DNA from: Qipengyuania sp. SS22
GTDB lineage: Bacteria > Pseudomonadota > Alphaproteobacteria > Sphingomonadales > Sphingomonadaceae
Direction: 5' to 3'
Assembly (NCBI RefSeq): GCF_025736935.1
Contig: NZ_CP107048.1
Coordinates: forward strand, 2,555,501-2,619,500
Length of the DNA stretch: 64,000 bases
Shown: positions 51,940 to 64,000 of the stretch, in pieces
Position numbering within the stretch: the first letter of the stretch is position 1
Layout of the letters: the number at the start of each line of letters is the position of its first letter
The notes under the pieces: model-generated
What the model was told of the DNA's origin: nothing
Database searches by the model: none
Seen by the model: only the letters and a program-made list of their open reading frames with translations
Made by a program: the position numbers and the translations under genes

Positions 51940-54900
51940 ATGTCTATTTCTACGAGAGATTTCCGGCGCAGCTTGCTCGTCGCGACCGGCATCGGCGCGA
52001 TCGCGGTATCCAGTCCGGCCATGGCCGAGGATTGCTTCCTCGACCGGGACGACGATGGCGCCATCGATGCAGCCACCGACGATGACGGTGGCGCGGATTC
52101 CGGCGATCTCGACACTAACCTTGCCTGCGGTGTCGACGCGACGGCGACGGGCGCTGACAGCACGGCGACGGGTGCATCCAGCACGGCGACCGGCGTCAGC
52201 AGCACAGCGACCGGGGCTGGAAGTGTCGCCAGTGCCACGCAAAGCACGGCAACCGGACGGTTCAGCACGGCCAGCGGAATGAATGGTACCGCCACGGGCG
52301 CCTTCACCTCCGCCGGGGGGGTAAGTTCCACAGCCACGGGTGCGTTTAGCAATGCAAGCAACCAGAATAGCACAGCGACCGGGGCGAACAGCGCGGCAAC
52401 AGGCAATCTAAGCACGGCCACCGGAAAAAGTAGCGCGGCTTCGGGCACAGACAGCACCGCCACCGGCGGGAGCAGTGCGGCGAGCGCCACGAGCAGCACG
52501 GCCACCGGGGCGAGCAGTCTCGCAAGCGGTGTGCAAAGCACGGCGACCGGCGCCAGCAGCGAAGCCAGCGGTTTCAACAGCACGACGACAGGCGCATACA
52601 GCACCGCCACAGCCGTTAACGCGACCGCAAACGGATACGACAGTGACGCCACCGGCATGGACAGTACCGCAGCCGGCGCTTTCAGCGAGGCGAGCGGCGC
52701 AAACGCCACTACCACCGGTGCATCCAGCGCAGCGAGCGGCGAGAATGCCACCGCAAACGGCTATTCCAGCGCCGCCAGCGGAACCGACAGCACCGCCCTC
52801 GGCGCAGAAAGTACCGCATCCGCCGTCAGGAGCACGGCCACAGGGGCGAACAGCACGGCCAGCGGGCTGCAAAGCATGGCCAACGGCTATGGCAGTCAGG
52901 CCACGGCGTTCAACAGCCTTGCCGTGGGGGCCTTGAGCAGCGCGACCGGCAACAAGTCTACGGCCGTCGGGACCGATAGCACCGCGAGTGCCGAGAACAG
53001 CACTGCCGCGGGTTTTTCCAGCGTAGCGACCTTCTTCGACAGCACTGCCATCGGTGCCAGCAGCTCCGCCACCCAAACGAGCGCCACCGCGACCGGCGCG
53101 AACAGCACGGCCAGCGGCCAGAGCAGCACCGCTACCGGCACCAGCAGCACAGCTTCTGGTAGCAACAGCACCGCCACCGGGGCGAGCAGTGCGGCAACCG
53201 GGACCCAGACCGTCGCCATGGGTACGGCCAGCCAGGCGACCGGCTTCGATGCCAGCGCATTCGGTGCTTCCAGCAAAGCCACCGCTACCTTCACGACAGC
53301 GATCGGCGGTTTCAGCGAGGCTAGCGGCAGCAATAGTACCGCCGCCGGCACCTATGCAGTGGCGAGCGGTACGCGGTCGATCGCCATCGGCAGCGATGGT
53401 AGCGACAGCGGCTTTATCGGCGCGATGGCATCGGCGACCAATAGCATCGCGATCGGGAATGATGCGCTCGCCGATTTCGCCAGTGCCATAGCGTTGGGCG
53501 GGAACGCGCAGGCCAGCGCGGCCAATGCGGTTGCGCTGGGCACGGGCTCGATCGCCGACCGCGCCAATACGGTCTCTCTCGGAAGCACCGGCAGCGAGCG
53601 GCAGATCGTCAACCTTGCCGCCGGAACGCAAGCGACCGATGCAGTCAACAAGGGCCAGCTCGACAACGTGGCGACATCGGCCGCCACCGCGCAGACGACT
53701 GCGAATACCGCAGTAGCCAACGCTGCCACTGCCCAGGCCACCGGGAATACCGCGCTTGCCGATGCCGCGACGGCTCAGGCCGCGGCCGAAGCGGCGCAGA
53801 CGACCGCCGACACTGCGGTGACTGCTGCCGCCTCGGCTCAGGCCACCGGGGATACAGCCCTCGCGAATGCGGCGACGGCTCAGGCTGCGGCGGAAGCTGC
53901 GCAGACGACCGCCGACGGTGCGGTGACCGCTGCCGCGTCGGCTCAGGCGACCGGGGATACGGCCCTAGCGAATGCAGCGACGGCTCAAGCTACTGCGGCG
54001 ACGGCGCAGACAACCGCCGATACGGCGCTCACCAATGCCGCTGCCGCGCAGGGAACTGCCAACACGGCGTTGGACAATGCCGCGACGGCGCAGAGCACGG
54101 CGAACACCGCTCGCACCGAAGCGGCAAATGCTCAAAGCCGCGCGGATGCCGCGTTCGACACCGCAGCCACCGCGCAGAGCACTGCCGACACGGCGCGTGC
54201 CGAAGCGCGCGCGGCCCAGCAGGCGGCCGATCAAGCTGGGTCCGGCGCGATAGCGGCCCAGGCCCGGGCCGATGCCGCTTTCGAAAATGCGGTGGATGCG
54301 CAGGCGAGCGCCAACCTAGCACGCACCGAGGCGCAGCAGGCGCAAACCGACGCCAACACTGCCCTGGCACGGGCCGAGGCGAACAGTGATGAATTGGCGT
54401 TCTTCGACAGCAACAGCAGCGGGCCGGGGGCATCGGCCACCGGCACCGATGCACTCGCGATCGGTACGGGCAGCCTTGCCAGCGGCGAACAGTCGGTGGC
54501 GATGGGGGCGAACGCGCAAGCGATAAACGGGCAGGCGGTCTCGATCGGGGCGGGCAATATCGCTTCGGGCAACGGCGCCGTCGCGATCGGCGATCCCAAT
54601 TTGGCAACCGGCACCGGTGCAGTGGCGCTGGGCGCGGACAACACCGCGACCGGCACCGGCGCGGTTGCCATCGGCAATCTGAACAGCGCGGTGGGGAATG
54701 GCGCTATCGCGCTGGGCAACGGCGCCTCCGCCAATGGCGCCGGTGCAATAGCGATCGGCAATGGCGCGATTGCGGCGCTGGACGGACAGGTCGCTCTGGG
54801 CGGCAGCGACAGCACCTATACGTTCGCCGGGTTGAATTCGGCCGAAAGCGCCGCGCGCCAGTCCGGGCCGGTGGCCCTGGTTACCGCGGATGCTGCGGGC

Positions 54901-55248
54901 AATCTGGGCGTAAGCACCTTCGACGTGGGGTCCCTTCAGAACATGGCCGGGCAGATGGATATGCTCCAGGGCAGTGTCGACACACTGTTCGATCTGGCAG
55001 CCGTCGAGCGTCGCGAGACCAATCGCGGGATCGCTGCCGCAGTGGCGCTGACGCCGGCGCCCATGCCGTCGGAAGTGGGCCGGGTCAGCTATGCGGCTAA
55101 CGCTTCGGTCTATCGCGGAGAGCTGGGTCTGGGCGCATCGCTGGCGGCGCGGGTCAATTCCGAGACGCCGCTCGCAGTCACGATGGGCGTGTCCTACAGC
55201 GGCGGCAAGAATACCGCCGCGCGGGTCGGAGTGGCGGGCGAGTTCTGA
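51940..55248 (+). CDS. YadA-like trimeric autotransporter adhesin
   Basis: A 1102-residue type Vc secreted adhesin. It has a signal peptide (about 1-29, ending SPAMA) and an Asp-rich patch resembling calcium-binding loops (FLDRDDDGAIDAATDDDGG). A very long head of Ser/Thr/Ala/Gly repeats follows (STATGASS, SAASGTDS types, about 64-500), then a YadA-type neck (NTVSLGSTGSERQIVNLAAG, then TQATDAVNKGQL). Next come an alanine-rich coiled-coil stalk (about 580-830), a second head (SVAMGANAQAINGQAVSIGA) and a C-terminal anchor (RGIAAAVALTPAPMPSEVGR to ARVGVAGEF) that forms the membrane barrel as a trimer. It should mediate surface attachment. Low complexity makes read-assembly errors possible. Confidence 0.92.
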   Translation: MSISTRDFRRSLLVATGIGAIAVSSPAMAEDCFLDRDDDGAIDAATDDDGGADSGDLDTNLACGVDATATGADSTATGASSTATGVSSTATGAGSVASATQSTATGRFSTASGMNGTATGAFTSAGGVSSTATGAFSNASNQNSTATGANSAATGNLSTATGKSSAASGTDSTATGGSSAASATSSTATGASSLASGVQSTATGASSEASGFNSTTTGAYSTATAVNATANGYDSDATGMDSTAAGAFSEASGANATTTGASSAASGENATANGYSSAASGTDSTALGAESTASAVRSTATGANSTASGLQSMANGYGSQATAFNSLAVGALSSATGNKSTAVGTDSTASAENSTAAGFSSVATFFDSTAIGASSSATQTSATATGANSTASGQSSTATGTSSTASGSNSTATGASSAATGTQTVAMGTASQATGFDASAFGASSKATATFTTAIGGFSEASGSNSTAAGTYAVASGTRSIAIGSDGSDSGFIGAMASATNSIAIGNDALADFASAIALGGNAQASAANAVALGTGSIADRANTVSLGSTGSERQIVNLAAGTQATDAVNKGQLDNVATSAATAQTTANTAVANAATAQATGNTALADAATAQAAAEAAQTTADTAVTAAASAQATGDTALANAATAQAAAEAAQTTADGAVTAAASAQATGDTALANAATAQATAATAQTTADTALTNAAAAQGTANTALDNAATAQSTANTARTEAANAQSRADAAFDTAATAQSTADTARAEARAAQQAADQAGSGAIAAQARADAAFENAVDAQASANLARTEAQQAQTDANTALARAEANSDELAFFDSNSSGPGASATGTDALAIGTGSLASGEQSVAMGANAQAINGQAVSIGAGNIASGNGAVAIGDPNLATGTGAVALGADNTATGTGAVAIGNLNSAVGNGAIALGNGASANGAGAIAIGNGAIAALDGQVALGGSDSTYTFAGLNSAESAARQSGPVALVTADAAGNLGVSTFDVGSLQNMAGQMDMLQGSVDTLFDLAAVERRETNRGIAAAVALTPAPMPSEVGRVSYAANASVYRGELGLGASLAARVNSETPLAVTMGVSYSGGKNTAARVGVAGEF
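53767..54021 (+). repeat. 105-bp tandem repeat in the adhesin stalk
   Basis: The phrase gcgacggctca recurs at 53767, 53872 and 53977, giving a 105-bp period. The first two units are near-identical and the third diverges in its second half. The period equals 35 residues, exactly five heptads, so unit gain or loss changes stalk length without breaking the coiled coil. Confidence 0.8.
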
Positions 55249-56801: not shown

Positions 56802-58655
<1,854 letters not shown>

Positions 58656-58746
58656 GCGCGGCCCCTTAACAGCCAATTGCGCTGTGCCCAAAGGAAATAG
58701 GGGCGGGGGAGTTTGCACCCTGCGCCCGGTGCGCTAGCGCGGGGGA

Positions 58747-59007
58747 ATGGAGATGCAAGATTTGTTGCAGCGCTATTTCGGAACGCCCGATCTGGCCGAG
58801 GTTGATCCGGTGGCACTGCCAGCGGGGATCGATCGCATGCGTGTCGATTTCGGGCTCGAGCGCGACAGCGGTCGGCGGTTTGCGCTGTGGACGTTGCTCT
58901 ACATGCTCGACGCCGCTCCCGATCTGGATGTCGCGTTCGAAGACCCGGCCGAGCGCGAGGCGGCACGCAATATCATGGACATGATCGCCAGCGCCTCACC
59001 GTCCTGA
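58747..59007 (+). CDS. small acidic protein (86 aa), unknown function
   Basis: An 86-residue soluble protein starting MEMQDLLQRYFGTPDLAEVD, with a central GRRFALWTLLYMLDAAPDLD and ending NIMDMIASASPS. It looks mostly helical and acidic, without signal or motif that I recognise. Codon use matches the neighbours. It is divergent from the ABC-F gene (91 nt) and converges with the sigma-54 regulator gene 22 nt away. Confidence 0.7.
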   Translation: MEMQDLLQRYFGTPDLAEVDPVALPAGIDRMRVDFGLERDSGRRFALWTLLYMLDAAPDLDVAFEDPAEREAARNIMDMIASASPS

Positions 59008-59029: not shown

Positions 59030-60445
59030 TCAATTGGTTTCGGCGCGCTGCTTTTCCAGTTTCCGGTAGATCGTCGAGGGGTTCACCGCCAGCTCCTTGG
59101 CGGCGCGGGTTACATTGCCGCCGTGTCGCTGCAGCGCCGCCTCGATCGCGATCTGCTCGATCTGTGCCAGCGTCATGCCGTCGAAGGCCATTGCGGTCGG
59201 GGGGGAAGGCAAGGGCTGCGCGGGCGTGCTCGCGAACTCGGAATATGCCGGCTCGAACGAGGCGGGAGGCAGGGCTTCCGGCATCGCAGCATGACCAGTC
59301 GGCAGCGAGATGTCGATCTCGTTGCCTTCGCCGATCACAACCGACCGCCGCAGGGCGTTCTGGAGCTCGCGGACATTGCCCGGCCAGGAATGGGCGCGAA
59401 TTTTCGCCCGGCTTGCTGCACTCAGCTGGAGCCCGGGGCGGCGCTCTTCCTGGGCGATCGTTTCAGTCAGCCGGTCCGCCAGCAGGACGATGTCGTCGCC
59501 GCGATCTCGCAAGGGCGGCAAGTGGATCGGGATGACATTGAGGCGATAGAGCAGGTCTTCGCGAAAGCGCCCCTCGGCGACTTCGCGCAAGGGATCGCGA
59601 TTGGTGGCGCAGACGATGCGGACGTCAACCGGTTCGGCCTGGGCCGATCCGACCCGCTGGATCATCCCGGTCTGGATGAACCGCAGCAGCTTGACCTGGA
59701 GCTTGAGCTCCATCTCGCAAATCTCGTCGAGGAACAGCGTGCCGCCGTCGGCCGCCTTGGCGGCGCCGATGCGGTTCTCGACCGCTCCGGTGAAAGCGCC
59801 TTTGACATGGCCGAAGAGCTCGCTTTCGAGCAGGTTTTCGGGAATGGCGCCGCAATTGATCGCGACAAAAGCCTTGTTCCGGCGGCGCGATTCCGCATGC
59901 AGCGCTTCGGCGGTTACTTCCTTGCCCGTCCCGCTCTCGCCGGTGACGAAGACGCTCGCGCGCGAATCGGCGACCTGTTCGATCGTCCGGAACACCGCGC
60001 GCATGACGGGCGACTGGCCGATAAAGCCATGGAAGCGCGTGCCGTCCTCGACCGGCTTGATGACTGCCTTGGCGGGTGCGGTCTTCGATTGTTCGACCGC
60101 TGCCCGGATCGTCGCCAGCAGGCGGGTGCCTGCAACCGGTTTGACGAGGAAGTCGAACGCCCCCAGCCGCATCGCCGCGATCGCGCGCGACAGCGAACCA
60201 TCGGCAGTGATGACGACAAAGGCGGGTGAGGTCTCGTCGCGCTGTTCGAGCAGCGAGAGGCCATCCCCGTCGGGCAATTGCAAATCGAGCAGCGCAGCGG
60301 AAAACCGCGTGTTGGCGAGCGCATCGCGCGCTTCGGCAAGCGTGGCGGCAAGCGCGACTTCATACCCCGCCTCTTCCAATTGGGCGGCAAAGCCGAGGGC
60401 CAGCGAAGCGCTGTCCTCGATGATCAGAATGGCGGGTTTCGACAT
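59030..60445 (-). CDS. sigma-54-dependent NtrC-type response regulator
   Basis: A 471-residue regulator with three domains. The receiver (1-115) has acidic pocket E10-D11, acceptor D54, T80 and K102. The AAA+ domain (about 140-370) has Walker A GESGTGKE (169-176), the sigma-54-contacting GAFTGA loop (216-221) and Walker B GGTLFLDE (234-241). The Fis-type helix-turn-helix (about 428-470) includes AALQRHGGNVTRAAKELAVN. All parts are intact, so it should activate sigma-54 promoters when phosphorylated. Its ATG is 2 nt after the H-NOX stop, so both are cotranscribed. No histidine kinase lies beside it. It may bind the TTGCA-N3-TGCAA repeats at 61.1 and 63.7 kb. Confidence 0.93.
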   Translation of the reverse strand: MSKPAILIIEDSASLALGFAAQLEEAGYEVALAATLAEARDALANTRFSAALLDLQLPDGDGLSLLEQRDETSPAFVVITADGSLSRAIAAMRLGAFDFLVKPVAGTRLLATIRAAVEQSKTAPAKAVIKPVEDGTRFHGFIGQSPVMRAVFRTIEQVADSRASVFVTGESGTGKEVTAEALHAESRRRNKAFVAINCGAIPENLLESELFGHVKGAFTGAVENRIGAAKAADGGTLFLDEICEMELKLQVKLLRFIQTGMIQRVGSAQAEPVDVRIVCATNRDPLREVAEGRFREDLLYRLNVIPIHLPPLRDRGDDIVLLADRLTETIAQEERRPGLQLSAASRAKIRAHSWPGNVRELQNALRRSVVIGEGNEIDISLPTGHAAMPEALPPASFEPAYSEFASTPAQPLPSPPTAMAFDGMTLAQIEQIAIEAALQRHGGNVTRAAKELAVNPSTIYRKLEKQRAETN

Positions 60446-60447
60446 AC

Positions 60448-60981
60448 TTATCCCGTCAGTGCGAATTCGGCGCGCGAGCCATCGTCATTTGCGCCGACCC
60501 AGTTGAGCGCGCGGTGGTCGCCGAAATGGGTCATAGCCCCGGCCACCAGCCCATGCGCGATATGCGCGAAGGGGCGATGCGAGGCGTATTCGACGCGCAA
60601 TACATCGCCTTCATCGTAAACGGTCACCTGCGGCGGCCGCGCATCGGGATAAAGAATCCGCACTTCCTCGTGGATGTGATCCCCGACATGCAACAGCAAT
60701 TCCTCTGCGCTGGCATAGCGGCCGACGATATCGCCATAGAGCACGGTAAAGCGCTCGAAGAGATACGCGCCGAACTGATGACACAGATCGGCGAATTCGG
60801 CCCCCGTCTCGCGCGAGGCGGCTTCGACAACGCGGACGGCTTCCTGCCACGGATACTGGCCGACACGCGTATAGGCGCCGCCATGCGGCAGGCCGGCATC
60901 GGCCAACACCTTCTCGGCGAGCTCGGGCCCGCCGGCGCGATCGAGAAAACCGACCAGTTCCGAAAAGATAATACCTTTCAC
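60448..60981 (-). CDS. H-NOX haem nitric oxide/oxygen-binding sensor
   Basis: A 177-residue stand-alone H-NOX (HNOB) domain of standard length. Features are the N-terminal MKGIIFSELVGFL, FERFTVLYGD, the proximal haem His (H104, in DHIHEEVRILYPDA; H102 is nearby) and the haem-propionate motif Y-x-S-x-R at residues 132-136 (YASHR). Free-standing H-NOX proteins sense nitric oxide and act on histidine kinases or cyclic-di-GMP enzymes in other bacteria. The start is GTG 60981, with GGAGG 5 nt upstream; the in-frame ATG at 61371 would add non-family residues. A sigma-54-type promoter lies about 40 nt upstream. No kinase or GGDEF/EAL gene adjoins it. Confidence 0.92.
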   Translation of the reverse strand: MKGIIFSELVGFLDRAGGPELAEKVLADAGLPHGGAYTRVGQYPWQEAVRVVEAASRETGAEFADLCHQFGAYLFERFTVLYGDIVGRYASAEELLLHVGDHIHEEVRILYPDARPPQVTVYDEGDVLRVEYASHRPFAHIAHGLVAGAMTHFGDHRALNWVGANDDGSRAEFALTG

Positions 60982-61021
60982 CGTAACCTCCGAATGCTTT
61001 GCCAAGATGTGAAAGCATCGA

Positions 61022-61038
61022 TGCAAAGGCCGTGCCGG
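61022..61038 (-). promoter_or_regulatory. sigma-54 promoter of the H-NOX-regulator operon
   Basis: Read on the minus strand from 61038 the sequence is CCGGCACGGCCTTTGCA. It fits the sigma-54 consensus YTGGCACGrNNNTTGCW with one mismatch; GG (-25/-24) and GC (-13/-12) are exactly 10 nt apart. The predicted start near 61011 leaves a leader of about 30 nt before the H-NOX GTG. Confidence 0.65.
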
Positions 61039-61099
61039 AATGAGGACAGGCGTATCGGGGCAAAACGGCGTCATAATTGCCGTACTATGCAACAGTCCC

Positions 61100-61134
61100 T
61101 TGCATTTTGCAAAAACGACTCTCGCATATTGCAA
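61100..61134. promoter_or_regulatory. tandem activator sites before H-NOX
   Basis: Two inverted repeats are present: TTGCA-TTT-TGCAA (61100-61112, perfect) and TCGCA-TAT-TGCAA (61122-61134, one mismatch). A further TGCAA half-site is at 61088-61092. Centres are 22 bp apart, two helical turns, and about 95 and 117 bp upstream of the predicted start, the usual position of NtrC-type enhancers. The rest of the 60982-61338 gap shows no gene. Confidence 0.6.
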
Positions 61135-61338
61135 CGAAGCTTTGGCGATTTGGCTTTTTGTGAGGTTCGCGATGCGAAATGCGGCTGGCACAGTCTGGGG
61201 GGTAACCCCATGGTACTCGTGAAAATCGCAGATGCTCGCGAAAATATGATCGTCGCTACCATGCTTCCGGCGCTTTGCGCTGCGGAGATGGACGAGTTCA
61301 TGAGAGCCGCTCGGCTGGCCGGGTAGTTCGTAAAGTTT

Positions 61339-61372
61339 GGTGGCCCGCACTGCGCTTGCAGTACGGGCCACC
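61339..61372 (-). terminator. long hairpin after hfaD
   Basis: Arms 61339-61353 and 61358-61372 form a 15-bp stem (one G-U on the transcribed strand) with a 4-nt loop, 8 nt beyond the hfaD stop. It is followed by AAACTTT rather than a pure T-run. It separates the hfa operon from the H-NOX promoter. Confidence 0.7.
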
Positions 61373-61380
61373 GGGGGAAG

Positions 61381-62409
61381 TTATTCGACGTTGATGCTGA
61401 CACTGTTGCCGATAGCGGCCGCAGTCGCGGCGGCGTTCGTGCTGGCACCGATGCTGGCAGCGACCTTCGCGACCTGACCGCCGTTGTTCCACTGGTTCAT
61501 CGAGCTGGAAACGTTGCCTGCGATATCGCTGTCGACGCTGGTCAGAGCATAGCTGTTGCCGATCGCCGCCGCGGTCGCGGTGTAATCGACGGTAGCCCCG
61601 ATCATGCCCGTCAGATCGGCGATCATCGTACCGGAATTGCTCTGCGCGGCGGTTACCGTGCTGCCACCCGGCATCTCCACGGCCAGGGAATTGCCGATCG
61701 ATGCAGCCGTGCTCGTGGCCTCGGAGACCATGTTCTGGATGGTAACCAGCTGCGAGGTCTGACCACCAAGATTGGTCTGGTCGATCGCCAGGTCGAGGAG
61801 CGCGCCTTCGGCATTGAACGACGCCGAGTTTCCGATCGTCGCGGCAGTCTCGGTCACTTCGCTGACGGCGTTGTAGGCAGTCGCAACCGAACTGGTGCCA
61901 TTGCCACGGTTGGTCTGGGTCAGGTCCGCCACGACATTTGCAGCTGCATCCAGCGCAAAGCTGTTGCCGATGCTGGCTGCGGTCGCATTGACGCTGGCAA
62001 CCGAGTTTGCCGTAGCATTGAGGATCGAATCCTGGTTGCCATCATTGGTCTGGCCAGTGACATAGTCGGCGGTGCGGGCAGTGGTGCCAACAAGACTTTC
62101 GAACGCGCTGACCAGTTCCGAGCCGCCCAGTGTCTCCAGAGCGGTGAGGATGGTTCCGTCGAGCAGCTGAACATTGCTGCCGCCGGTCGAGCCTTCGATC
62201 AGGCCAAGATAGACGTTGAGCAGTTCGTCGCCGCCAACCTCGACCACCGCATCGAGAACCGAGCGGTCGCCGAGAAGCGCGCCCGTCGAAAGACCAATAT
62301 CGACCGCAACCAGCGGGTCGGGTTCGGTCGGCAGCGAAACCTGCGCGGTTGCAGGGGCTGCGGCCATGGCGAGCAGGCCCGCCGTCGTCATCAGGTAAAA
62401 CTTCGTCAT
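61381..62409 (-). CDS. hfaD: HfaD-like holdfast anchor protein
   Basis: A 342-residue exported protein (signal MTKFYLMTTAGLLAMAAAPATAQ). The second half contains five repeats ending in the same phrase: TAASIGNSFAL, TAATIGNSASF, TAASIGNSLAV, TAAAIGNSYAL and TAAAIGNSVSI, each about 40-50 residues apart and rich in Ser/Thr/Ala/Asn. This suggests a stacked beta or amyloid-like surface protein. In Caulobacter, HfaA, HfaB and HfaD together anchor the holdfast adhesin to the envelope. Assignment here rests on repeat style and on being third in an hfaA-hfaB-hfaD order, 2 nt after hfaB. Confidence 0.65.
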   Translation of the reverse strand: MTKFYLMTTAGLLAMAAAPATAQVSLPTEPDPLVAVDIGLSTGALLGDRSVLDAVVEVGGDELLNVYLGLIEGSTGGSNVQLLDGTILTALETLGGSELVSAFESLVGTTARTADYVTGQTNDGNQDSILNATANSVASVNATAASIGNSFALDAAANVVADLTQTNRGNGTSSVATAYNAVSEVTETAATIGNSASFNAEGALLDLAIDQTNLGGQTSQLVTIQNMVSEATSTAASIGNSLAVEMPGGSTVTAAQSNSGTMIADLTGMIGATVDYTATAAAIGNSYALTSVDSDIAGNVSSSMNQWNNGGQVAKVAASIGASTNAAATAAAIGNSVSINVE

Positions 62410-62411
62410 TT

Positions 62412-63296
62412 TTAGTCTCCTTCAGGTTGAGTTTGCGGGCTTGCCGCTTGTTCTACGGCGTAGCTCACCGATTGAACGTTGGTTGGACAGAGAGGCGCGT
62501 CGGCGCCCCTTTGTTCGCGCATCAGATCGATCACCGCCTTTTCGACGATAGCTCTGATCGCTCCATGCACCGGCTCCTGGCGGCGGCGTCCGACGCCGAG
62601 ATCCAGAGTAGTGTTGCCGATGAATTCGAAGATGCCGGCGCGGATTTCACGGCCGCGGATCTGTTTTTGCAGGCTGGCGACGTTGACGACGCGCAGGCTG
62701 CGGGCATCGATCAGGCGCAGGTCCACGCCGACCGACATGACATAGGAACGTGCTCCGCCGCCGACCGGACCGATCGAGGCTTCGGCCACATCGCTGCGAA
62801 TATTGAAATCCAGTTCGGTGATACCGCCCAAGACGATCAAATCGGCTTCCGCAATCGACCCCGAATAGATCCGCCGGTAGTCGTCGGTTGGCTGCCCGTC
62901 CGGGCCGAGCAACTTGCTGTTGGCGTAATCGAGTTCCTGCAGGGCAATCCGCAGGTCCAGTCTTTCGGCAAGCGGAAAGCCTCCCTTGGCCAGAGCGGAA
63001 ATCACCATGAGCGCAGCCCCTTGGGGAGCTACCGAACCGTTCAGCCCATCCAGGCGACCGGTGTAATCAGCAACTTCCCCCACCGCGATCCGCGGTTGCG
63101 CGGCAGCGCGTGTTTGCGAAGCCATGCAGCGCAGAATGCTCGAATAGGCGGTGTCACCATCGATAACGCGCGCGCCGCTGAGAGGCGTGATCCGCTGGGG
63201 AGGCGTGTCGGCAAAGCTTGCGCAGCCCCCCAGTGACAGGCCAGTCGCTGCAAGCGCGATTGCCCGATGGATGAGTTTCTTTCCCCCGATCATCAT
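62412..63296 (-). CDS. hfaB: HfaB, CsgG-family outer-membrane secretion lipoprotein
   Basis: A 294-residue lipoprotein with leader MMIGGKKLIHRAIALAATGL followed by a LGGC lipobox. The CsgG/HfaB domain shows RITPLSGARVIDGDTAYSSI, PRIAVGEVADYTGRLDG, GGFPLAERLDLRIALQELDY, LIVLGGITELDFNIRSDVAE and YVMSVGVDLRLIDARSLRVV. CsgG forms the secretion pore for curli subunits; HfaB does the matching job for HfaA and HfaD. The start at 63296 has GGAGGG about 5 nt upstream and follows the hfaA stop by 1 nt; extension to 63338 is not needed. Confidence 0.85.
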   Translation of the reverse strand: MMIGGKKLIHRAIALAATGLSLGGCASFADTPPQRITPLSGARVIDGDTAYSSILRCMASQTRAAAQPRIAVGEVADYTGRLDGLNGSVAPQGAALMVISALAKGGFPLAERLDLRIALQELDYANSKLLGPDGQPTDDYRRIYSGSIAEADLIVLGGITELDFNIRSDVAEASIGPVGGGARSYVMSVGVDLRLIDARSLRVVNVASLQKQIRGREIRAGIFEFIGNTTLDLGVGRRRQEPVHGAIRAIVEKAVIDLMREQRGADAPLCPTNVQSVSYAVEQAASPQTQPEGD

Positions 63297-63297
63297 C

Positions 63298-63630
63298 TTA
63301 CCCTCCCTGGCCGAGCGAGGAAGCGCTGGTCGCGACAACGGCCCGCTGGTTGCCCGAGCTGGCTTGGCGGGCGTTCACGACCACCGTGTTGTTGCTGCCG
63401 TGAACCGTGACGTTGATCATGTTGGCGATCGCAATCGCGCGGCTATCCTGACGATTCCGCAGAGCGGGATTGGTCATCAGTTTGCCGCCTTGCGAGGCGG
63501 AGCCCGCAATGATGACGCGATTGTTGTCGGCATCGCGCTCGAAAGACATCGGCGCGCTCTGCGGCCGGCCGGCGTCGGAGGCCTGCGTACCTGCCAGAGC
63601 TGCTGCTTGTGCGAGAACTAGAAGTATCAT
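63298..63630 (-). CDS. hfaA: HfaA-like holdfast anchor subunit
   Basis: A 110-residue exported protein: short signal MILLVLAQAAALAGTQA, then MSFERDADNNRVIIAGSASQ and the C-terminal repeat-like AIAIANMINVTVHGSNNTVV and VNARQASSGNQRAVV. The A-I-x-N-x-I-N-V-x-V-x-G-x-x-N-T-V-x-V pattern matches Caulobacter HfaA, an amyloid-forming curlin-like protein. GAGGA lies 6 nt before the ATG. It is first in the hfaABD operon and has a sigma-54-like -24 element about 40 nt upstream. Confidence 0.75.
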   Translation of the reverse strand: MILLVLAQAAALAGTQASDAGRPQSAPMSFERDADNNRVIIAGSASQGGKLMTNPALRNRQDSRAIAIANMINVTVHGSNNTVVVNARQASSGNQRAVVATSASSLGQGG

Positions 63631-63667
63631 GTGTCATCCTCATTCGAAGTGATCTGGCCCTTGCTTT

Positions 63668-63683
63668 TCACAACCCGTGCCAA
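63668..63683 (-). promoter_or_regulatory. possible sigma-54 promoter of hfaABD
   Basis: On the minus strand TTGGCACG is a perfect -24 element. At the correct distance the -12 box reads GTGA instead of TTGC, so the match is incomplete: G at -13 is kept and C at -12 is lost. The predicted start near 63656 is about 26 nt before hfaA. Confidence 0.4.
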
Positions 63684-63738
63684 AAACACATAAAGGTCTA
63701 AAATCAGCTACTTATGCTCCTAGCCCACCGATGGCGGA

Positions 63739-63772
63739 TTGCATTCCGCACCGCTGGCCTTGCAAAATGCGA
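63739..63772. promoter_or_regulatory. tandem TTGCA-type sites before hfaA
   Basis: TTGCA-AAA-TGCGA (63760-63772, one mismatch to TTGCA-N3-TGCAA) and a weaker TTGCA-TTC-CGCAC (63739-63751) have centres 21 bp apart. They lie about 89 and 110 bp upstream of the predicted hfaA start, nearly the same layout as before H-NOX. The remainder of 63631-63931 shows no gene I can support. Confidence 0.5.
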
Positions 63773-63931: not shown

Positions 63932-64000
63932 CTAGGAGGGTCTATGAGGAGGTGGACGAACCTTCCCGGCGATCAATTCCCGCTCGATGTTGGCCGATGC
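63932..64000 (-). CDS. possible C-terminal end of a minus-strand gene at the window edge
   Basis: On the minus strand a frame enters from beyond 64000 and reads ASANIERELIAGKVRPPPHR then PS before a TAG at 63932-63934. It looks protein-like but is too short to assign. A competing plus-strand frame starts at ATG 63944 with AGGAGG 4 nt upstream (MRRWTNLPGDQFPLDVGRC, open at the edge). I cannot decide between them. Confidence 0.25.
   Translation of the reverse strand, partial: ASANIERELIAGKVRPPPHRPS

Follow-up and report, generated by a model that had tools for sequence, protein, structure and literature searches.

What joins a haem-based gas sensor of the H-NOX type, a sigma54 response regulator and a set of holdfast-anchor-like genes that lie side by side on one strand? 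This arrangement occurs in Qipengyuania sp. SS22, a marine relative of Qipengyuania citrea, within a 64,000-nt stretch (C1:2555501-2619500, hereafter the window) of a genome that consists of a single 2.68-Mb contig. We conclude that the locus probably encodes a phosphorelay, modulated by nitric oxide (NO), that would control surface attachment, including the holdfast-anchor genes. Its gene content, key residues, boxes and promoter motifs, and their conservation, are read directly from the DNA.

Genes of the locus within and beyond the window

The transcription order on the minus strand of the window is hfaA, hfaB, hfaD, a 399-nt gap, H-NOX and the response regulator, with the following coordinates.

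63298..63630, minus strand: hfaA-like gene, 110 aa (NCBIfam HfaA, 33.5 bits; cut-off 50)
62412..63338, minus strand: hfaB-like gene of the CsgG family, 308 aa (CsgG, 74 bits, above cut-off; NCBIfam HfaB, 235 bits; cut-off 300)
61381..62409, minus strand: hfaD-like gene, 342 aa (NCBIfam HfaD, 42 bits, E 7e-11; cut-off 100)
61339..61372, minus strand: 15-bp hairpin between the two units, directly after hfaD (-34 kcal/mol, z -7.6)
60448..60981, minus strand: H-NOX gene, GTG start, 177 aa (Pfam HNOB, 92.3 bits; cut-off 25.5)
59030..60445, minus strand: LuxO-like sigma54 response regulator with REC, AAA and Fis helix-turn-helix (HTH) domains (NCBIfam LuxO, 503 bits)

An earlier note, made from the window alone, had described the regulator as an orphan with no histidine kinase nearby. 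This is an artefact of the window edge. Beyond base 64,000 the same strand continues upstream with two glycosyltransferases, GT4 and GT2, followed by a HisKA-REC-HPt protein and then a membrane histidine kinase; these last two lie from about 2.7 kb beyond the window end, and the orphan reading was therefore rejected. The HPt protein (601 aa) has no ATPase domain by Pfam; its HPt domain scores 22.2 bits, slightly under the Pfam cut-off of 24.6, and its relay residues H281, D410 and H543 are invariant in five of five relatives. The kinase (1019 aa) carries HAMP, PAS, HisKA and HATPase domains, plus a dCache match that falls under the cut-off.

The H-NOX gene ends 2 nt before the start of the regulator, and coordinates and domains bear out the earlier description of an intact regulator, which the label 'NtrC-type' describes too loosely: among NCBIfam models LuxO fits best (the next scores 393 bits), and LuxO 5ep0 is the best relative by sequence in the PDB. 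Because 503 bits falls under the curated cut-off of 800, we call the protein LuxO-like rather than LuxO. It has the receiver aspartate, GAFTGA motif and Fis-type HTH of LuxO/SypG-like activators, and D54, T80, K102 and GAFTGA (216-221) are invariant in nine orthologues.

H-NOX proteins are recognised by a proximal histidine and a Y-x-S-x-R haem motif, both present here, with H104, P117 and Y132-x-S134-x-R136 invariant in 21 sequences. Oxygen-binding members carry a distal tyrosine (Tyr140 of the Thermoanaerobacter protein). The equivalent position, R136+5 (placed from the motif only), is an isoleucine in our protein, making oxygen the less likely ligand and narrowing the earlier 'nitric oxide or oxygen' in favour of NO. 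The closest solved structures to this H-NOX by sequence, PDB 6bde and 6bdd, are named as aldolase, apparently a misannotation.

The hfa-like genes keep the A-B-D order of Caulobacter, and all three matches fall under the family thresholds; because the curated cut-offs are unmet, we do not assign them as bona fide HfaABD. They lie on the same strand as H-NOX and upstream of it, as previously noted, but H-NOX does not follow them immediately, 399 nt separating it from hfaD. Since the hairpin lies in this gap together with a sigma54/LuxO-type promoter predicted for the pair (see below), hfaABD and H-NOX/regulator are probably separate transcription units, and a single hfaABD-H-NOX-regulator operon was rejected. 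The hairpin is perfect, without a U run, and largely conserved across three species, making it a candidate terminator or 3' stabiliser.

LuxO-type boxes and predicted sigma54 promoters

Passages of two papers give the LuxO site as TTGCAWWWTGCAA (PMC10162802, PMC11443567). Predicted TTGCAWWWTGCAA-type sites are present at the promoters expected for a LuxO/SypG-like activator, as listed here (no strand is assigned to the boxes).

61020..61039, minus strand: predicted sigma54 -24/-12 promoter of H-NOX/regulator, GGCACGGCCTTTGC (rank 1 of 603,350 positions in 302 kb of own DNA)
61100..61112: LuxO-type box TTGCAAAATGCAA (minus-strand reading), perfect half-sites (one of two perfect TTGCANNNTGCAA sites in the genome)
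61122..61134: LuxO-type box TTGCAATATGCGA (minus-strand reading), perfect TYGCAWWWTGCRA, 22 bp from the 61100 box and identical in three species
63665..63684, minus strand: sigma54-like element of hfaA, TTTGGCACGGGTTGTGAAAA, GG-N10-GA (rank 17 of 603,350; one T/C change in three species)
63739..63751: weak second hfaA box, two mismatches to TTGCANNNTGCAA, 21 bp from the 63760 box (by eye; partly conserved)
63760..63772: LuxO-type box upstream of hfaA, TTGCAAAATGCGA (one of three perfect TYGCAWWWTGCRA sites genome-wide)

The perfect A/T-spacer form TYGCAWWWTGCRA occurs three times in 2.68 Mb, always at this locus: twice before H-NOX, where it includes the 61100 box, and once before hfaA. Allowing one mismatch yields 29 sites genome-wide (control 7), six of which fall in 5.6 kb of this locus; three sites at this stringency stand before GT2, spaced in register at 21-22 bp. 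Inspection by eye first revealed the box, which was then tested genome-wide, and these counts are to be read with the Y/R and A/T-spacer forms having been fixed after relatives and our own sites had been viewed. The case for the boxes rests on the A/T-spacer form together with position. The second perfect TTGCANNNTGCAA site, C1:2325393, falls where a short-chain dehydrogenase gene begins and looks like chance.

A matrix built from 76 sites of relatives outside the genus put the two H-NOX sites, the hfaA site and one GT2 site in the top four places of the 302 kb of own DNA, some of it fetched because it holds candidate boxes. A sigma54 matrix from 25 relatives, run on the same 603,350 positions, placed the H-NOX element first, that of GT2 second and that of hfaA seventeenth. 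Across three species, GGCACGGCCTTTGC has a single change; just a spacer base of the 61100 box varies in two relatives, and the 63760 box is identical in G318 with one mismatch in Q. citrea (G317). Boxes and promoter elements look, by eye, more conserved than the surrounding DNA in these alignments. The earlier suggestion that a sigma54 activator controls hfa thus gains support at the sequence level from a perfect TYGCAWWWTGCRA box and a conserved sigma54-like element before hfaA.

The regulator is flanked by an ABC-F ATPase gene (56802-58718, minus strand) and an 86-aa open reading frame (ORF) of unknown kind (58747-59007, plus strand). ORFs of 629 and 86 aa stand at the same place in G317 and G318, the 629-aa product of G318 being ABC-type by Pfam. 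Four kilobases from the regulator, 51940-55248 (plus strand) encodes a 1102-aa YadA-head repeat protein, likely a surface adhesin; the 25 best-scoring LuxO-type boxes listed all fall elsewhere.

The pair and the hfa genes across the family

H-NOX occurs in 47 of 298 family genomes, and a LuxO-like gene follows it directly in 28 of the 47, so that the pairing is more than chance. Regulator orthologues (at least 53% identity and 364 bits) are separated by a gap from paralogues (at most 43% and 321 bits) and occur in 33 of the 298 genomes, 32 of which are also among the 47 with H-NOX.

In 28 of 28 adjacent pairs, a sigma54 motif and at least two boxes that depart from TYGCANNNTGCRA at no more than one base lie in the 250 bp before H-NOX, the sigma54 counting pattern being loose enough to occur also before H-NOX in 5 of 15 scored non-adjacent genomes, two of them without any box. 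The strict box precedes H-NOX in 26 of the 28 (shuffled sequence, mean 0.02 of 28). Non-adjacent H-NOX genomes number 19, of which 15 were scored, four of the 47 H-NOX genomes (L050, L051, L053, L055) having been left out as under the H-NOX match threshold; the strict box was found in four, namely G020 (regulator 12 kb from H-NOX), G014 (regulator after a kinase), G130 and G211. The last two (L046 and L047) carry apparently broken copies of H-NOX and regulator, and the circuit may be decaying in some lineages. A second H-NOX class has a GGDEF-EAL neighbour (L048, L049, L052, L054, L056, L057, L058, L062, L066); the strict LuxO-type box precedes H-NOX in none of these nine.

Most pairs (23 of 28) adjoin at least two genes of a wza-wzz-wzy block that diverges from the pair, usually with GT2-GT4 beyond. 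For the fetched loci, a simple script predicted the genes, and phmmer comparison with our own queries supplied their labels; the block proteins match Poly_export and Wzy_C, the middle one lacks a Pfam match, and its 'wzz' label comes from a weak NCBIfam EpsF match and its position. In a set of named loci (the best 80 of 130, overlapping the 298-genome sample), 55 are adjacent pairs, with polysaccharide genes in 41, relay genes in 8, both in 2, hfa and relay in 1 and neither in 3. The strict box is found in 44 of these 55 pairs and any box in 52, compared with a strict box in 3 of the 25 other loci. WecG-like glycosyltransferase genes with a LuxO-type box and sigma54 motif near their start were seen at L177:2-967 and L181:2-1075, in polysaccharide-type loci and divergent from a Wzx-like flippase; L181 also has Bac_transf.

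Within the genus, 11 of 60 genomes have H-NOX: three with hfaABD, six with the polysaccharide block, one with block and relay (G310) and one with relay alone (G146). A kinase, an HPt protein and a sigma54 activator linked to H-NOX were found in one locus in our genome (G000), G317 and G318, and likewise in G146 and G003, where kinase, HPt gene, H-NOX and regulator are consecutive.

The hfa linkage is far narrower. The layout with hfaABD beside H-NOX/regulator is identical in three of the 60 genus genomes (G000, G317, G318), the H-NOX of G317 being 96% identical to ours. The HfaB model matches 28 of the 298 family genomes at E 0.001, none over the cut-off and eight strongly (E 4e-55 or better), and our HfaB used as a query matched 1 of 397 at E 1e-50. 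Of the 60 genus genomes, 17 reach E 0.001, three of them at 95-100% identity and the other 14 at no more than 38 bits. Only G000 among the 28 HfaB-matching family genomes has hfaB beside H-NOX, so a family-wide rule of hfa linkage was rejected; hfaABD adjoins none of the other 46 H-NOX genes in the 298 genomes (6 to 17 kb fetched around each). Because the other strong hfaB loci (eight loci in seven family genomes) show no LuxO-type box in 19 kb around each, the hfa link is, on the genomes compared, special to the Q. citrea group. Lack of conservation of the neighbourhood, which the earlier note had named as refuting its reading, is thus borne out by half: hfa is linked in this group only, and the pair with its surface-polysaccharide link is conserved widely.

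A FastTree phylogeny of the regulator, whose support values were not examined, nests the hfa type among polysaccharide types, and hfaABD therefore most likely replaced the wza-wzz-wzy block once. Our genome has two other Poly_export genes. A plasmid origin was unsupported: 72,556 plasmid records gave seven HfaB (E 1e-30) and two H-NOX (E 1e-20) matches, all below 60% identity.

A candidate H-NOX partner and the proposed circuit

GGDEF-EAL proteins and hybrid kinases that adjoin H-NOX have an N-terminal coil in common. With a first profile (eight GGDEF-EAL rows, several badly cut), HPt-family ORFs scored E 0.003 to 0.7. A second profile of 19 rows, picked from the first output and neighbouring partners, came from several phyla by record title and contained no HPt-family rows (the L049 row was badly cut). 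Run on 13,465 ORFs of the fetched loci, it returned 48 under E 0.001, the 19 training rows included, and the next ORF stood at E 2.8. The 48 comprise 9 GGDEF-EAL proteins, 25 ORFs nearest the hybrid-kinase query, 10 nearest the HPt protein and 4 without a match to any query, each directly behind H-NOX; examples are L255:10540-12681, L264:7013-9238 and L066:5892-7958. The coil is thus found in 10 of 18 HPt-family ORFs, several being repeat copies of one locus, and L182 is the sole such match whose domains were checked by Pfam. It was found in 0 of 98 LuxO-like ORFs (repeat locus copies included) and 0 of 17 cache-kinase ORFs. The shared coil may be an H-NOX docking module. Because it occurs in relatives of the HPt protein and not in the regulator, H-NOX probably acts on the relay, with the HPt protein its likely partner. 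Of the two targets previously suggested, a distant kinase was close to the mark, the likely relay lying about 3 to 8 kb upstream of hfaA, and the regulator itself is not favoured.

For this locus we infer the transcription units, the flow of phosphate, the H-NOX partner, the direction of the NO effect and the attachment phenotype as follows. The membrane kinase (HAMP-PAS-HisKA-HATPase, likely with a cache sensor) and the coil-PAS-HisKA-REC-HPt protein would pass phosphate to the LuxO-like regulator, which once phosphorylated would bind the TYGCAWWWTGCRA boxes and switch on three neighbouring units from their sigma54 promoters, namely GT2-GT4, hfaABD and, by positive autoregulation, H-NOX/regulator itself. 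H-NOX, co-made with the regulator, would sense NO via haem and most likely hold the relay back through docking to the coil at the N-terminus of the HPt protein. With NO present, phosphorylation would fall, the self-activating loop would collapse, GT2-GT4, hfaABD and H-NOX/regulator would be shut, and anchor production would stop. A more detailed version we offer tentatively, as possible rather than probable: H-NOX gates a split phosphorelay through the coil of an ATPase-less HPt protein; since the activator drives the promoter of H-NOX and of itself, commitment to attachment would install its own NO off switch; and this bistable module would, in the Q. citrea group, have exchanged a polysaccharide-export block for the captured hfa anchor.

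Several observations weigh against the proposed NO-modulated relay. The sigma54-like element of hfaA has GA in place of GC at -12, and the second hfaA box is a weak one; in its loose form TYGCANNNTGCRA the box is not enriched, occurring at 8 places in our genome versus 7 for a reversed control; and RpoN was not located in the roughly 302 kb of our genome scanned for its motif. G234 has the H-NOX/regulator pair and hfaB, but its hfaB lies elsewhere without a box, and 49 of 60 genus genomes lack H-NOX. The block's Wzz had no match in our genome, in a search that had no positive control of its own, and the coil profile misses our own HPt protein, in which the coil is predicted from 60% identity to the matching L182.

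That H-NOX acts directly on the adjoining LuxO-like regulator, without a kinase, would agree with its position: the regulator comes immediately after it in 28 of the 47 H-NOX genomes and in 55 of the 80 named loci. The lack of a recognised relay gene in the fetched flanks of 44 of these 55 adjacent pairs would agree too, and counts against the relay as well. We nevertheless regard direct action as unlikely, given that the partner coil is missing from all 98 LuxO-like ORFs, that G014 has the order H-NOX, hybrid kinase, regulator, and that H-NOX of G020 and G236 adjoins a hybrid kinase, 10-13 kb from the regulator. G204 carries a regulator, adjoining wza-wzz-wzy and GT2-GT4, without any H-NOX, a genome that speaks against direct action and likewise against our own reading.

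It is rather improbable that hfaABD merely landed beside an unrelated H-NOX/regulator pair and stands outside its control. The arrangement in just three genus genomes and the box-free surroundings of the other strong hfaB loci fit such an event, as do HfaB relatives at 78-88% identity that carry Sphingomonas names, suggesting that the genes may have moved; yet one of only three perfect genome boxes and a conserved sigma54-like element stand directly before hfaA, and relatives have, in the same slot, polysaccharide genes whose box region is also that of H-NOX. We consider very unlikely a third arrangement, in which the regulator controls hfaABD while H-NOX reports NO to a separate enzyme of cyclic di-GMP (c-di-GMP). 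Such an enzyme gene (GGDEF-EAL) lies near H-NOX in 9 of 47 H-NOX genomes, and Caulobacter without hnox is described in part of one report as having raised c-di-GMP and more biofilm (PMC10746521), but the layout places H-NOX and regulator behind a single promoter under box control, and our own loci L078 and L095 gave no recognised GGDEF-EAL relative.

The NO-modulated relay that we favour has close counterparts in vibrios. According to passages of PMC12369376, HnoX of V. fischeri is an inhibitor of the kinase HahK, whose action reaches SypG via the Hpt domain of SypF (and LuxU); this sigma54 activator switches on syp polysaccharide, and NO inhibits biofilm through HnoX. SypG and LuxO are further described there and in part of PMC10162802 as using overlapping sites at qrr1. 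The NO sensor, kinase, HPt relay, LuxO-like sigma54 activator and surface polysaccharide genes are alike, and by analogy our module probably works like the HnoX-SypG route. However, H-NOX is operonic with the kinase in V. fischeri, whereas here it is paired with the activator and the pair has its own boxes; moreover, no kinase ATPase domain is present in the HPt protein here, and hfaABD is among the proposed targets. H-NOX also feeds an HPt protein and a LuxO regulator in the H-NOX/HqsK-LuxU-LuxO circuit of V. harveyi, whose output, LuxR, differs, as described in part of PMC3759921. The same source has NO raising biofilm in that species, a sign opposite to ours that weighs against the proposed direction, and we therefore hold the sign of the NO effect uncertain. 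Shewanella and Legionella, in the portions of PMC3759921 that treat them, share the NO-to-biofilm logic, with H-NOX beside a kinase or c-di-GMP enzyme and c-di-GMP as output, unlike the sigma54 activator next door here; our H-NOX, having the regulator as its direct neighbour, forms neither type of operon.

The earlier note knew of no described system with this layout. The logic proves to be known from the V. fischeri route; the hfa target is new. We know of no LuxO-type control of Caulobacter hfa, and the Caulobacter H-NOX gene presumably lies away from hfa. No open-access paper was found that joins H-NOX and Erythrobacter, hfaABD and Sphingomon, or TacA, hfaA and holdfast. As far as our searches reach, three things are new within the literature: a pair of H-NOX and activator that has boxes of its own, the spread of this pair among sphingomonads, and hfa as a target.

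If this reading is correct, the vibrio logic of NO, H-NOX, HPt protein and LuxO/SypG would extend to a large sphingomonad group (Erythrobacteraceae and kin), in which circuit and target genes can share one locus. The N-terminal coil, present in kinases, GGDEF-EAL proteins and HPt proteins of several phyla, would be a candidate sequence signature of H-NOX partners and bears on how H-NOX finds its partner. For the organism itself, the locus would tie NO to holdfast-anchor genes in a direct and testable way, and NO may decide whether a cell glues itself to a surface.

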